Assembly: GCF_000024365.1 (NCBI RefSeq)
Contig: NC_013235.1
Location: 3,162,001 to 3,226,000, forward strand
DNA: 64,000 bases
Source: Nakamurella multipartita DSM 44233
Lineage (GTDB): Bacteria; Actinomycetota; Actinomycetes; Mycobacteriales; Nakamurellaceae
Direction of reading: 5' to 3'
Position numbers and translations under genes: made by a program. This document shows, in pieces, positions 7,834 through 11,720 of the stretch. Positions within the stretch are counted from its first letter, which is position 1. The number at the start of each line of letters is the position of its first letter. The notes beneath the pieces are model-generated. The model saw only the letters and a program-made list of their open reading frames with translations, was not told the DNA's origin and did no database searches.

Positions 7834-10224
7834 TCAGCGACCCACGTAGTCGGCCAGGTGTTGGCCGGTGAGCGTCGACCGGTCGGCGACCAGGTCGGCG
7901 GGAGTGCCTTCGAAGACGATCCGGCCGCCGTCGTGTCCGGCCCCCGGACCCAGGTCGATGATCCAGTCGGCGTGCGCCATCACGGCCTGATGGTGCTCGA
8001 TGACGATGACCGACTTGCCGGTGTCGACGAGCCGGTCCAGCAGACCGAGCAGGTTCTCCACGTCGGCCAGGTGCAGGCCGGTCGTCGGCTCGTCCAGGAT
8101 GTAGACCCCGCCCTTCTCCCCCATGTGGGTGGCCAGCTTGATCCGTTGCCGCTCCCCGCCGGACAGGGTGGTCAGCGGTTGCCCGAGGGACAGGTAGCCC
8201 AGCCCGACGTCGACCAGGGCGGCCAGGATCTTGTGTGCCGCCGGCAGTTTCGCCTCGCCGACGCTGAAGAACTGCTCGGCCTGGGCGACGGACATGGCCA
8301 GCACCTGACTGATGTCCTGGCCGCCGAAGGTGTACTCGAGCACCTCGGCCTGAAAGCGCTTGCCCTCGCACACCTCGCACGGGGTGGCCACCCCAGCCAT
8401 GATGGCCAGGTCGCTGTAGATCACCCCGGCGCCCTTGCAGTTCGGGCAGGCACCCTCCGAGTTCGCGCTGAACAGGGCGGGTTTGACTCCGTTGGCCTTG
8501 GCGAAGGCCTTGCGGATCGGTTCGAGCAGCCCGGTGTAGGTGGCCGGGTTGCTGCGCCGGGATCCCTTGATCGCGCCCTGGTCGACGGTGACGACACCGT
8601 CGACTCGGGACAGCGACCCGTGGATGAGCGAGCTCTTGCCGGACCCGGCGACGCCGGTCACCACGACGAGCACACCCAGCGGCACGTCGACATCGACCCG
8701 GCGCAGGTTGTTGGTGTCCGCACCGCGCACCTCCAGCGCGCCCGTCGACGTGCGCACCGAGGGTTTGAGCGCGGCCCGGTCGTCCAGGTGCTGCCCGGTC
8801 AGGGTGCCGCTGGTCCGCAGCCCGGCCACGGTGCCCTCGTAGACGATCTCGCCCCCGCCGGCGCCGGCCCCGGGACCGAGGTCGACCGCGTGGTCGCCGA
8901 TGGCGATCGCCTCCGGCTTGTGCTCGACCACCAGCACCGTGTTGCCCTTGTCCCGCAACTGCAGCAGCAGGCTGTTCATCCGGGCGATGTCGTGCGGGTG
9001 CAGGCCGATGGTGGGCTCGTCGAAGACGTAGGTGACGTCGGTCAGCGACGACCCCAGGTGCCGGATCATCTTGGTGCGCTGCGCCTCGCCGCCGGACAGC
9101 GTGCCCGAGGACCGTTCCAGGGACAGGTACCCCAGGCCGATCTCGACGAAGGAGTCGAGCGTCTGGCTCAACGCGGTGATCAGCGGCCCCATCGACGGTT
9201 CGTCGAGTTCCCGGACCCAGTCGGCCAGGTCGCTGATCTGCATGGCGCACAGGTCCGCGATGTTCTTGCCGTTGATCTTCGACGAGCGGGCCCCCTCGCT
9301 CAGCCGGGTGCCCTGGCACTCGGGGCACACGGTGAAGGTCACCACCCGCTCCACGAACGCCCGGATGTGCGGCTGCATCGCCTCGACATCCTTGGACAGC
9401 ATGGACTTCTGGATCTTAGGGATCAAACCCTCGTAGGTCAGGTTGATGCCCTCGACCTTGATCTTGGTCGGCTCCCGGTAGAGCAGGTCGTGCATTTCCT
9501 TCTTGGTGAAGCGGCGAATCGGCTTGTCCGGATCGAAGTAGCCGCAGCCACGGAAGATCCGGCCGAACCAGCCGTCCATGCTGTAGCCGGGGATGATCAG
9601 GGCGCCCTCATTGAGCGACTTGTTCTCGTCGTACAGGGCGGTCAGGTCGAAATCGTTGACCCGGCCAATGCCTTCGCAGCGCGGGCACATCCCGCCGGTG
9701 ATGGAGAACTCGCGGCGTTCCTTGGTCGTCTGCCCGGCCCGTTCGAAGGTCACCGCGCCGGCGCCGCTGATCGAGGCCACGTTGAACGAAAAGGCTTGCG
9801 GTGAGCCGATGTGCGGCTGGCCCAGGCGGCTGAACAGGATCCGCAGCATCGCGTTGGCGTCGGTCGCGGTGCCCACGGTGGAACGAGGGTTGGCGCCCAT
9901 CCGCTCCTGGTCGACGATGATCGCGGTGGTCAGCCCGTCGAGCACATCGACGTCCGGCCGGGCCAGCGTAGGCATGAAGCCCTGCACGAAGGCGCTGTAG
10001 GTCTCGTTGATCAGCCGCTGGGACTCGGCCGCGATGGTGCCGAAGACCAGCGAGCTCTTGCCCGACCCGGAGACCCCGGTGAACACGGTCAGCCGGCGCT
10101 TGGGGATCTCGACGCTGATGTCCTTGAGATTGTTCACCCGAGCACCGTGCACACGGATCATGTCGTGCCGGTCCGCGGCGGGCGGATCGGCCGGCGAGGT
10201 CCCTGTGGTGGTGGCGGTGCTCAT
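7834..10224 (-). CDS. UvrA-like ABC-ATPase (class II UvrA paralogue, 796 aa)
   Basis: Tandem ABC-ATPase of the UvrA family, shorter than housekeeping UvrA (about 950 aa or more). First half: Walker A GVSGSGKSS near residue 50 and signature TLSGGEAQR near 375. Second half: Walker A GVAGSGKSS near 523 and TLSGGERQR near 686. Zinc-binding Cys pairs are seen as CPRCEG (~178), CPECQG (~298), CPNCKG (~590) and CEVCEG (~618). Such paralogues (DrrC-like) occur beside drug-resistance genes and bind DNA damaged by, or protect it from, intercalators. The start at 10224 follows GGAG with good spacing, and an in-frame ATG at 10269 is rejected. It overlaps the PPOX gene by ATGA and closes the operon that begins at the AraC gene. 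Confidence 0.9.
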   Translation of the reverse strand: MSTATTTGTSPADPPAADRHDMIRVHGARVNNLKDISVEIPKRRLTVFTGVSGSGKSSLVFGTIAAESQRLINETYSAFVQGFMPTLARPDVDVLDGLTTAIIVDQERMGANPRSTVGTATDANAMLRILFSRLGQPHIGSPQAFSFNVASISGAGAVTFERAGQTTKERREFSITGGMCPRCEGIGRVNDFDLTALYDENKSLNEGALIIPGYSMDGWFGRIFRGCGYFDPDKPIRRFTKKEMHDLLYREPTKIKVEGINLTYEGLIPKIQKSMLSKDVEAMQPHIRAFVERVVTFTVCPECQGTRLSEGARSSKINGKNIADLCAMQISDLADWVRELDEPSMGPLITALSQTLDSFVEIGLGYLSLERSSGTLSGGEAQRTKMIRHLGSSLTDVTYVFDEPTIGLHPHDIARMNSLLLQLRDKGNTVLVVEHKPEAIAIGDHAVDLGPGAGAGGGEIVYEGTVAGLRTSGTLTGQHLDDRAALKPSVRTSTGALEVRGADTNNLRRVDVDVPLGVLVVVTGVAGSGKSSLIHGSLSRVDGVVTVDQGAIKGSRRSNPATYTGLLEPIRKAFAKANGVKPALFSANSEGACPNCKGAGVIYSDLAIMAGVATPCEVCEGKRFQAEVLEYTFGGQDISQVLAMSVAQAEQFFSVGEAKLPAAHKILAALVDVGLGYLSLGQPLTTLSGGERQRIKLATHMGEKGGVYILDEPTTGLHLADVENLLGLLDRLVDTGKSVIVIEHHQAVMAHADWIIDLGPGAGHDGGRIVFEGTPADLVADRSTLTGQHLADYVGR

Positions 10225-10745
10225 GCTGTCTCCATCCGTGCAGTCGACGTCCGTGCGGCCGAGGTCCACGCAGTCGGTCCCGGCCCCCCTGTGTCTACCA
10301 GCCAGCGACCGGCCCGCATCAGCTCGCGTCCGGGCAGTTCGTCGGCCTCCCGCCAGGCCTGGATGCGGTGCGGGACGACCCGGAACCAGCAGTACCGGAT
10401 CGCTTCGGCCCGGGGGTCGAAGCCGGCCCGGGCCGCGAACCGGTCGGCCGCCGGCGCGGGCAGCTCGTCCATCTCGAGGACCTGGACGTCACCGTCGATC
10501 ATGGTCACGTCCCGGGTGCCGCCCAGGCCGAGCCGGACCCGGCCGGTGGCGGCCAGGTTCCGGCCGGTCGGGCTGTCCGCCGGAGTGGCCAGCAGCAGGG
10601 CCCGCCCGTCCCAGTCGAAGGACAGCGGCACCAGGTAGGGCGAGCCGTCGGTTCCGGCGCTGGCCACCCACACGTCCACGTCCCGGCTGAGCCGACGCTC
10701 GGTGTCGCGGCGGCGCCAGATCGGTGAACGGGGGTCGGCACACAT
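10221..10745 (-). CDS. Pyridoxamine 5'-phosphate oxidase-family protein (174 aa)
   Basis: Split beta-barrel flavin/F420-binding protein: VDVWVASAGTDGSPYLVPLSFDW, then LLLATPADSPTGRNLAATGRVRLGLG, the typical PPOX pattern in which the first strand set binds the cofactor phosphate. Family members in actinobacteria reduce or oxidise xenobiotics with FMN or F420. It lies 29 nt downstream of the VOC gene and overlaps uvrA-like by ATGA, so it belongs to the same operon. A role in drug or quinone modification would fit the context but is inference. Confidence 0.85.
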   Translation of the reverse strand: MCADPRSPIWRRRDTERRLSRDVDVWVASAGTDGSPYLVPLSFDWDGRALLLATPADSPTGRNLAATGRVRLGLGGTRDVTMIDGDVQVLEMDELPAPAADRFAARAGFDPRAEAIRYCWFRVVPHRIQAWREADELPGRELMRAGRWLVDTGGPGPTAWTSAARTSTARMETA

Positions 10746-10774
10746 CGCGGGGACCTTTCGACAGTCGTTGCCGC

Positions 10775-11185
10775 TCAGGGCAGTTCGTTGATGCGGATCA
10801 TGTTGCCGGCCGGGTCCCGGACCGCGCAGTCGCGGACCCCCCAGGGCTGCGCCATCGGCTCCTGCACGACGTCGGCCCCGCTGGCCTGCAGCGTGTCGAA
10901 CAGGCCGTCCAAGTCCTTGGTGGCCAAGGTGATGGCGCCGTAGCTGCCCTTGGCGATCAGTTCCAGGACCACCTGCCGCTCGGCCTCGGTGATGCCGGGG
11001 TCGACGGCCGGCGGGTGCAGCACGATCGCCGTCTGCGGCTGGTTCGGCGGCCCGACGGTCAGCCAGCGCAGCCCGTCGTAGCCGACGTCGTTGCGCAGCT
11101 CGAACCCGAGGGTGCCCTGGTAGAAGGCCAGCGCGGCGTCCGGGTCGGTCTGCGGGAGGAAGGCGTAGTGAATCGTGATCTCCAT
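10775..11185 (-). CDS. VOC-family (glyoxalase/bleomycin-resistance-like) protein, 136 aa
   Basis: Opens MEITIHYAFLPQTDPDAALAFYQGTLGFELRNDV, the common betaalphabetabetabeta module of VOC proteins, with the second module ending CAVRDPAGNMIRINELP. Family members are metal-dependent isomerases or lyases, or bind drugs without catalysis. It lies 5 nt after the AraC-type regulator and 29 nt before the PPOX gene, so it is the second gene of a resistance-like operon. The in-frame open region extends further upstream, but ATG 11185 gives the canonical length. Confidence 0.85.
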   Translation of the reverse strand: MEITIHYAFLPQTDPDAALAFYQGTLGFELRNDVGYDGLRWLTVGPPNQPQTAIVLHPPAVDPGITEAERQVVLELIAKGSYGAITLATKDLDGLFDTLQASGADVVQEPMAQPWGVRDCAVRDPAGNMIRINELP

Positions 11186-11190
11186 GCCGC

Positions 11191-11637: not shown

Positions 11638-11669
11638 CGGGCGATGGTGCCACGTCGGCCCCTCTTCAA

Positions 11670-11698
11670 GGTATAGCGGCCCCGGGGGCTTGCGGCAA
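11670..11698 (-). promoter_or_regulatory. Candidate promoter of the AraC-VOC-PPOX-UvrA operon
   Basis: On the minus strand TTGCCG (11698-11693) and TATACC (11675-11670) are separated by exactly 17 nt. The -35 hexamer lies inside the RAE-like palindrome, so whatever acts on that element should affect this promoter. The transcript would start about 26 nt before the AraC GTG. Confidence 0.5.
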
Positions 11699-11703
11699 GA
11701 CCC
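11685..11703. promoter_or_regulatory. Rifamycin-associated element (RAE)-like 19-bp inverted repeat
   Basis: The sequence GGGGCTTGCGGCAAGACCC is an inverted repeat (CTTGC/GCAAG core with GGG/CCC flanks). It agrees with the RAE consensus as I recall it from work on rifamycin-inactivating enzymes and HelR in actinomycetes; I cannot check the consensus here. It lies 67 nt upstream of the HelD/HelR-type start and 48 nt upstream of the divergent AraC start, so it is positioned to control both. Confidence 0.75.
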
Positions 11704-11720
11704 CGGTCCGGCCCCAGAAT
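11690..11720 (+). promoter_or_regulatory. Candidate promoter of the HelD/HelR-type gene
   Basis: TTGCGG (11690-11695), contributed by the RAE-like palindrome, is followed after 19 nt by CAGAAT (11715-11720). The spacer is longer than optimal, which is common in promoters that need an activator or altered polymerase. The leader to GTG 11770 is about 43 nt and carries GGAG at 11761-11764. Confidence 0.4.

Follow-up and report, generated by a model that had tools for sequence, protein, structure and literature searches.

Organization of the helR locus

The locus described here lies in a stretch of 64,000 nucleotides of Nakamurella multipartita DSM 44233 (contig NC_013235.1, positions 3,162,001 to 3,226,000 of the forward strand; hereafter the window), where a rifamycin-associated element (RAE) stands between the resistance gene helR and a group of AraC, VOC, PPOX and UvrA genes on the opposite strand, referred to below as the cassette. 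The sequence-only reading had placed an RAE between helR (+) and four tightly linked genes (-), and this layout was confirmed with the gaps and the overlap that it had given: AraC and VOC are separated by 5 nt, VOC and PPOX by 29 nt, and the PPOX stop shares an ATGA with UvrA, provided that the latter starts at ATG 10224. The GTG of AraC is 47 nt from the RAE and the GTG of helR is 66 nt from it, with flanks that match those of other RAE loci. The features, in window coordinates, are:

11685..11703, no strand: RAE, 19-bp palindrome with two overlapping -35-like elements inside
11690..11695, +: sense -35-like TTGCGG of the helR promoter, laid out as P2 of the literature
11715..11720, +: sense -10-like CAGAAT, spacer 19 nt
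11770..13968, +: helR, HelD-class motor protecting RNA polymerase (NCBIfam NF041254)
11693..11698, -: antisense -35-like TTGCCG, overlapping the sense -35
11668..11673, -: antisense -10-like TACCTT, spacer 19 nt
11661..11661, -: predicted antisense start, conserved GG
11644..11649, -: the cassette's own -10-like CACCAT within TGGCACCAT, 6 nt upstream of the AraC start codon; leaderless promoter motif
11191..11637, -: AraC-type regulator, GTG start; DNA-binding domain and a conserved tail containing Cys
10775..11185, -: VOC protein, glyoxalase/bleomycin-resistance fold
10221..10745, -: PPOX-fold protein, optional member of the cassette
7834..10224, -: class II (Ecm16-like) UvrA without the UvrB-binding region; start best taken as ATG 10224
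about 7448..7773, -: second VOC-type frame, possible fifth member of the cassette; frame apparently broken near its end

The window RAE, GGGGCTTGCGGCAAGACCC, has one mismatch to the 19-mer used for the search as the RAE consensus. With up to three mismatches allowed, the window gave two matches (one site, read on both strands) against a mean of 0.15 in shuffled windows. A looser form of the element occurs twice in the whole single-contig genome of 6,060,298 bp and its backwards control not at all. The second site (G000:C1:682845-682863; L038 4846-4864) lies between a divergent VOC gene, whose in-frame ATG overlaps the predicted antisense start, and rph, which matches the rifamycin phosphotransferase family with 1362 bits (cutoff 999). 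Across the class, a search with GGNCTTGCGGCAAGNCC found the element in 182 of 393 genomes and the backwards control in 25. An RAE with at most two mismatches is present at nine of the ten helR loci of the genus; at the tenth (G011) none was found at this tolerance.

The window helR reaches 1222.8 bits to NCBIfam HelR NF041254 (cutoff 750). For comparison we assembled 90 class sites among the matches listed (60 of them picked for spread) and 10 sites of the genus, with short flanks in some loci. A sense open reading frame (ORF) was picked at 93 loci, the window and its rph site included, and 91 of these frames belong to known resistance types (HelR 57, Rox-like 15, Rgt-like 8, Rph 7 and Arr 4), the remaining two being a DrrA-like ABC ATPase and a short ORF. 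The family names rest on an NCBIfam scan of nine sense genes, in which the second Rox and both Rgt had the named families as best match and scored below the curated cutoffs, and all the others (HelR, Arr, the ABC ATPase, one Rox and both Rph) passed. The back side yielded 34 ORFs in 30 clusters, and the ten that were scanned were of many kinds; the coding filter used to pick ORFs was crude, having been trained on 8 window genes. Since the sense side is uniform and the back side mixed, membership of the RAE regulon does not in general extend to back-side genes, and the cassette lies opposite to the CAGAAT (sense) side on which the genes of that regulon stand.

Some of these sites deserve mention in their own right. 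The sense gene at L080 (1889-2812) is the DrrA-like ABC ATPase (338 bits, cutoff 312.45), which could belong to an RAE-controlled efflux system. The RAEs of L078, L084 and L089 have no match to the known resistance queries beside them and are candidates for carrying unknown rifamycin-response genes. The site at L119 lacks the usual flanks and may have arisen by chance.

The RAE as a putative divergent promoter

Of the 100 RAE sites, 94 could be oriented by their flanks and six were dropped for a small score margin or an edge position. The logo of the oriented sites reads TTGCGG, 19 nt, CAGAAT toward the resistance gene, together with an exact mirror, TTGCCG, 19 nt, TAnnTT, that points away from it and is followed 7 nt further on by a conserved GG. 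Because orientation by the flanks could favour the motif being scored, a second orientation used only the resistance gene, by which 85 of the 90 class sites could be placed (no gene hit at L078, L080, L084, L089 and L119). In these gene-oriented loci, too, both arms have their -10 at the same 19-nt distance from the overlapping -35s. The sense -10 keeps its A and T in all 85 and has the first T in none, giving strict TAnnnT in 0/85; the antisense -10 reads TAnnnT in 83, the GG downstream of it is conserved in 70, and off-register positions carried the -10 motif in 1 of 680 cases. The antisense TAnnnT was found in only three of the six flank-oriented sites that have no picked sense gene. Conservation of the palindrome also extends beyond the -35s, to its outer GGG...CCC.

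A further feature of the back arm is a hairpin with a T-rich tail. In 32 of 97 loci one begins no more than 4 nt from the predicted antisense start (shuffles: mean 2.5, maximum 5 in 40 rounds), and on the sense side none of the 97 has one so placed. The contrast weakens when the hairpin may begin up to 30 nt on (41/97 against a shuffle mean of 15.5 and maximum of 22; one case on the sense side). Folding energies of four good antisense hairpins run from -13 to -19 kcal/mol and in each case beat those of 200 shuffles. The 32 loci include neither the window nor the nine other sites of its genus; the antisense segment of the window folds no better than its shuffles and has no terminator-like hairpin at the start. 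At the rph site a weaker stem, 8 nt further on and inside the VOC gene, passes the looser terminator criteria only. Whether a missing terminator goes with a nearby back-side gene was examined by eye, and no such link is claimed.

The mirrored -10s at 19 nt, taken together with the terminator-like hairpin at the antisense start, make the RAE look like a symmetric divergent promoter whose back arm is often silenced. In the window this back arm points into the AraC cassette, and no terminator-like hairpin lies between them. An upstream TATAGC was considered as the -10 of a sense P1 and dropped, since it does not fit the published position of the P1 start, about 20 bp upstream of the RAE. We found neither an antisense promoter nor a terminator at the RAE described in the open-licence literature.

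Such an arrangement could work as a reciprocal switch, in which the overlapping promoters exclude one another, sensing is done by RNA polymerase itself, and under rifamycin promoter use moves from the back arm to the helR arm so that the input to the cassette falls. The overlap of the -35s, the equal spacers, the better -10 of the back arm and the hairpin at its start in 32 of the 97 loci are all in keeping with this, as is the published rifampicin sensor of Bacillus subtilis helD (PMC12802891), which also depends on two promoters, albeit convergent ones. Nevertheless, a polymerase stalled by the drug on the back arm should block the front arm too, and conservation of the outer GGG...CCC past the -35s is what would be expected of a protein-binding site. 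We consider the switch, taken by itself, unlikely.

The AraC-VOC-UvrA cassette and its linkage with helR

Among structures in the PDB the window UvrA is closest to 7sh1 (Ecm16; 1291 bits, aligned over 13-810), with 564 bits to the canonical 3pih, whose residues 121-264 are unmatched and replaced by residues 155-183 of the query; it also stays below the cutoff of the canonical family TIGR00630 (689.9 vs 729.8 bits). By these comparisons it is a class II protein, predicted to have the UvrA fold without the UvrB-binding domain. The VOC protein had been described as of drug-binding type, and of this the fold holds. It reached none of the cutoffs of the bleomycin-binding families, scoring 19.5 bits to BLMA NF033156 (cutoff 140), and its match to TioX is only 25 bits. 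Similarly, the supposed flavin/F420 protein does have the PPOX fold, and its 34.8 bits to the F420-dependent family TIGR03618 lie below the cutoff of 79.05. In AraC no domain was found besides the DNA-binding domain. Its C-terminal tail, MPxCVAKQVTRPIRNREA (window 11191-11271, -), contains a near-invariant Cys, kept in 77 of 80 AraC loci including the Dyella copy, and this tail could be a sensor. The second VOC-type frame begins 60 nt past UvrA and changes frame near its end, as judged by eye; matches to it (window 7448-7773, -) were seen near the cassette in several named AraC loci.

The AraC family is present in 207 of 298 genomes of the order. In named genomes we surveyed the best 80 of at least 593 confirmed AraC loci: a VOC gene is directly downstream in 66, a UvrA above 600 bits is present in 56, and a PPOX match of any kind in only 9, which counts against the interpretation of the sequence-only reading. 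The family survey covered 17 genomes, all of one genus, with a UvrA at E 1e-150 or better in 16 and a HelR of 59-100% identity in 10, the window included. Beside the UvrA of the relatives, AraC and VOC are found just upstream in 9 of 15 (10/16 with the window), PPOX alone in one and none of them in five. No RAE with up to two mismatches was found at the AraC gene of those nine loci, which goes against the idea that linkage is conserved in related genomes. L034 has a non-palindromic match with four mismatches near AraC. As AraC-VOC-(PPOX)-UvrA is thus widespread without an RAE, we treat it as a stand-alone cassette, to which the window belongs by a grouping of our own (an AraC of alignment A1, then VOC and a class II UvrA). 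A narrow search of the open-licence literature returned no description of it. Beyond the Actinomycetota, AraC-VOC with a class II UvrA was seen in Variovorax (L171) and in a Dehalococcoidia metagenome-assembled genome (L176), and AraC-VOC with no class II UvrA in the flanks covered in another Dehalococcoidia assembly of this kind, in Dyella and in an Eremiobacteraeota record (L185, L190, L194).

The cassette also appears to have a promoter of its own. In a set of 90 AraC loci (79 of the 80 named ones, the nine relatives, G040 and the window), the motif TGGCA[CGT][ACG]AT followed 6 or 7 nt on by the start codon occurs in 55, against a mean of 0.02 in 100 composition shuffles, and this is how a leaderless promoter is laid out. 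The window keeps it between the RAE and AraC (CACCAT at 11649-11644, GTG at 11637).

Juxtaposition with helR is rare. Within 7 kb, RAE and HelR accompany one of the best 80 AraC loci, in Micromonospora sicca, where the RAE is downstream of AraC, and an AraC of the cassette family stands at one of the 90 class RAE loci (L088, genome G040) besides the window. G040 belongs to a different family and has the order UvrA-VOC-AraC-RAE-HelR, with no PPOX. In G004 (L009 572-3648) a single strand carries helR, AraC and VOC in tandem; AraC follows helR after about 75 nt and has the cassette's own promoter motif in a variant form. In G008 and G006 the distance between helR and AraC is about 5 and 9 kb, the orientations are different and the RAE is not shared. 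By our own estimate, chance adjacency within a few hundred bases in such a sample has a probability well under 0.1, and we read the recurrence as modest evidence of selection or of a common landing site. In a quick UvrA tree the window copy groups with that of G007 and the G040 copy with other taxa; in the HelR tree G040 groups with L043 (97/92) and the window weakly with G009 (93/37), 30 of the 57 inner branches being open and the bootstrap not settled. The pairing of helR and cassette seems to have arisen more than once, since the trees split the two UvrAs and do not join the two HelRs; transfer of a single block to the window and G040 is not supported by them. No synteny beyond cassette and helR was found when window ORFs of at least 110 aa in the first 32 kb were compared with 24 loci at 45% identity or more.

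This bears on the proposal of the sequence-only reading that the locus is a composite rifamycin-response operon, and on the co-occurrence survey of RAE, helR and cassette that it called for, in which the combination recurred in G040 and was otherwise as rare as the counts above. In that proposal the palindrome binds a rifamycin-responsive factor that raises helR on one side and VOC-PPOX-UvrA on the other. A promoter-like element does point toward AraC, the dyad is centred over both -35s and would act equally on both arms, the juxtaposition is met again in G040 (and as a tandem in G004), and each of the two RAEs of the genome has a back-side gene and no terminator-like hairpin at its antisense start, although the rph site has its weaker stem 8 nt on. 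On the other hand, the cassette normally lives without an RAE and keeps its own promoter motif, the back-side genes of RAE loci are mixed, and the nearest solved relative of its UvrA, Ecm16, acts on DNA-bound drug. The proposal has partial support; as a full account of the window we find it improbable, and as a general rule a shared conserved rifamycin operon of AraC-VOC-PPOX-UvrA and helR is rejected, linkage being rare and the back sides mixed.

The rarity of the linkage (1 of the best 80 AraC loci, 1/90 class RAE loci) and the retained promoter motif would suit an RAE that is only a bystander, with a back-arm motif that is no promoter in vivo and a cassette that the element does not affect. 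Against this stand the conserved GG at the predicted start and the hairpin with T-rich tail found there in a third of the loci, and it too seems doubtful to us.

Interpretation and relation to known systems

On balance we incline to the following view. The four genes represent a cassette that is widespread in actinobacteria and probably serves drug tolerance; this copy has ended up back to back with the helR RAE, from which it may receive an extra input. Most expression would come from the cassette's own promoter, with its AraC as the probable regulator. The back arm of the RAE would be transcribed, and unproductive wherever the hairpin is present; in the window it would read into AraC and thus offer a second, RAE-governed input of either sign. 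UvrA may strip or shield DNA-bound drugs in the manner of Ecm16, and the VOC protein (and PPOX) may act by binding or reducing the drug. Rifamycin itself, whose action is not on DNA, is probably not the main substrate of the cassette.

Several points weigh against this view. A UvrA above 600 bits is missing from 24 of the best 80 AraC loci, in some through a contig end, and the drug-tolerance role, which we hold as probable, is argued from relatives only. An upstream GGGCAA element present in 16 of the 90 AraC loci is absent from the window, whose own promoter may for that reason be weak and the back arm of the RAE its main one. G040 has lost the own promoter motif and has instead a ribosome-binding-like GGAGGAG and a start codon after the predicted RAE antisense start, so that there the back arm looks likely to be the main promoter.

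A more speculative model, which we offer as a tentative possibility, combines several of these elements. The RAE would be at once a factor-binding palindrome and a pair of exclusive divergent promoters, its back arm a dead end often closed immediately by an intrinsic terminator at the start site; competition between drug-free and drug-bound polymerase would sense rifamycin, and in the window genome and in G040 the dead end would have been opened to a drug-tolerance cassette, making a two-handed switch.

If the antisense promoter is real, then together with its frequent start-site terminator it is a new part that any model of the RAE must explain, and it sets two kinds of model apart: a factor bound on the palindrome should drive or free both arms alike, and competition of polymerases for the arms should give opposite responses. 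The window would be a natural test, because its back arm points into readable genes. The distribution of the class II UvrA cassette across actinobacteria and a few other phyla in turn suggests tolerance to DNA-binding drugs well outside the known producers.

As to known systems, the window RAE and helR are ordinary members of the RAE-controlled rifamycin resistance genes (helR, rox, rgt, rph, arr), with the same flanks and spacing; the cassette differs in occupying the back side, for which we found no gene family common to the loci. A published paper and a review state that the rifamycin sensor at the RAE is unknown. The literature considered, besides PMC12802891, comprises PMC10719064, PMC8655204, PMC10192343, PMC10413001, PMC7283461 and PMC11464796.

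The closest solved relative of the UvrA is Ecm16, of the class II UvrA self-resistance proteins, which likewise lack the UvrB-binding region. Ecm16 is described as having no UvrB-binding domain and as conferring echinomycin resistance independently of UvrA, B, C or D. The window protein differs from it in being accompanied by AraC and VOC genes. With TioX and other drug-binding VOC proteins the cassette has the VOC fold in common, the match to TioX being weak.

The sense arm agrees in layout with P2 of Mycobacterium smegmatis helD, a comparison of layout and not of sequence, the start of P2 being reported as mapped. The helD alarm of B. subtilis has two opposed promoters upstream of the HelD gene, with an antisense spacer of 19 bp; their interplay senses rifampicin, and its key features are reproduced in a minimal in vitro system (PMC12802891). 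In B. subtilis, however, the promoters are convergent and without an RAE, whereas in the window the putative promoters diverge and share the palindrome as their -35s.

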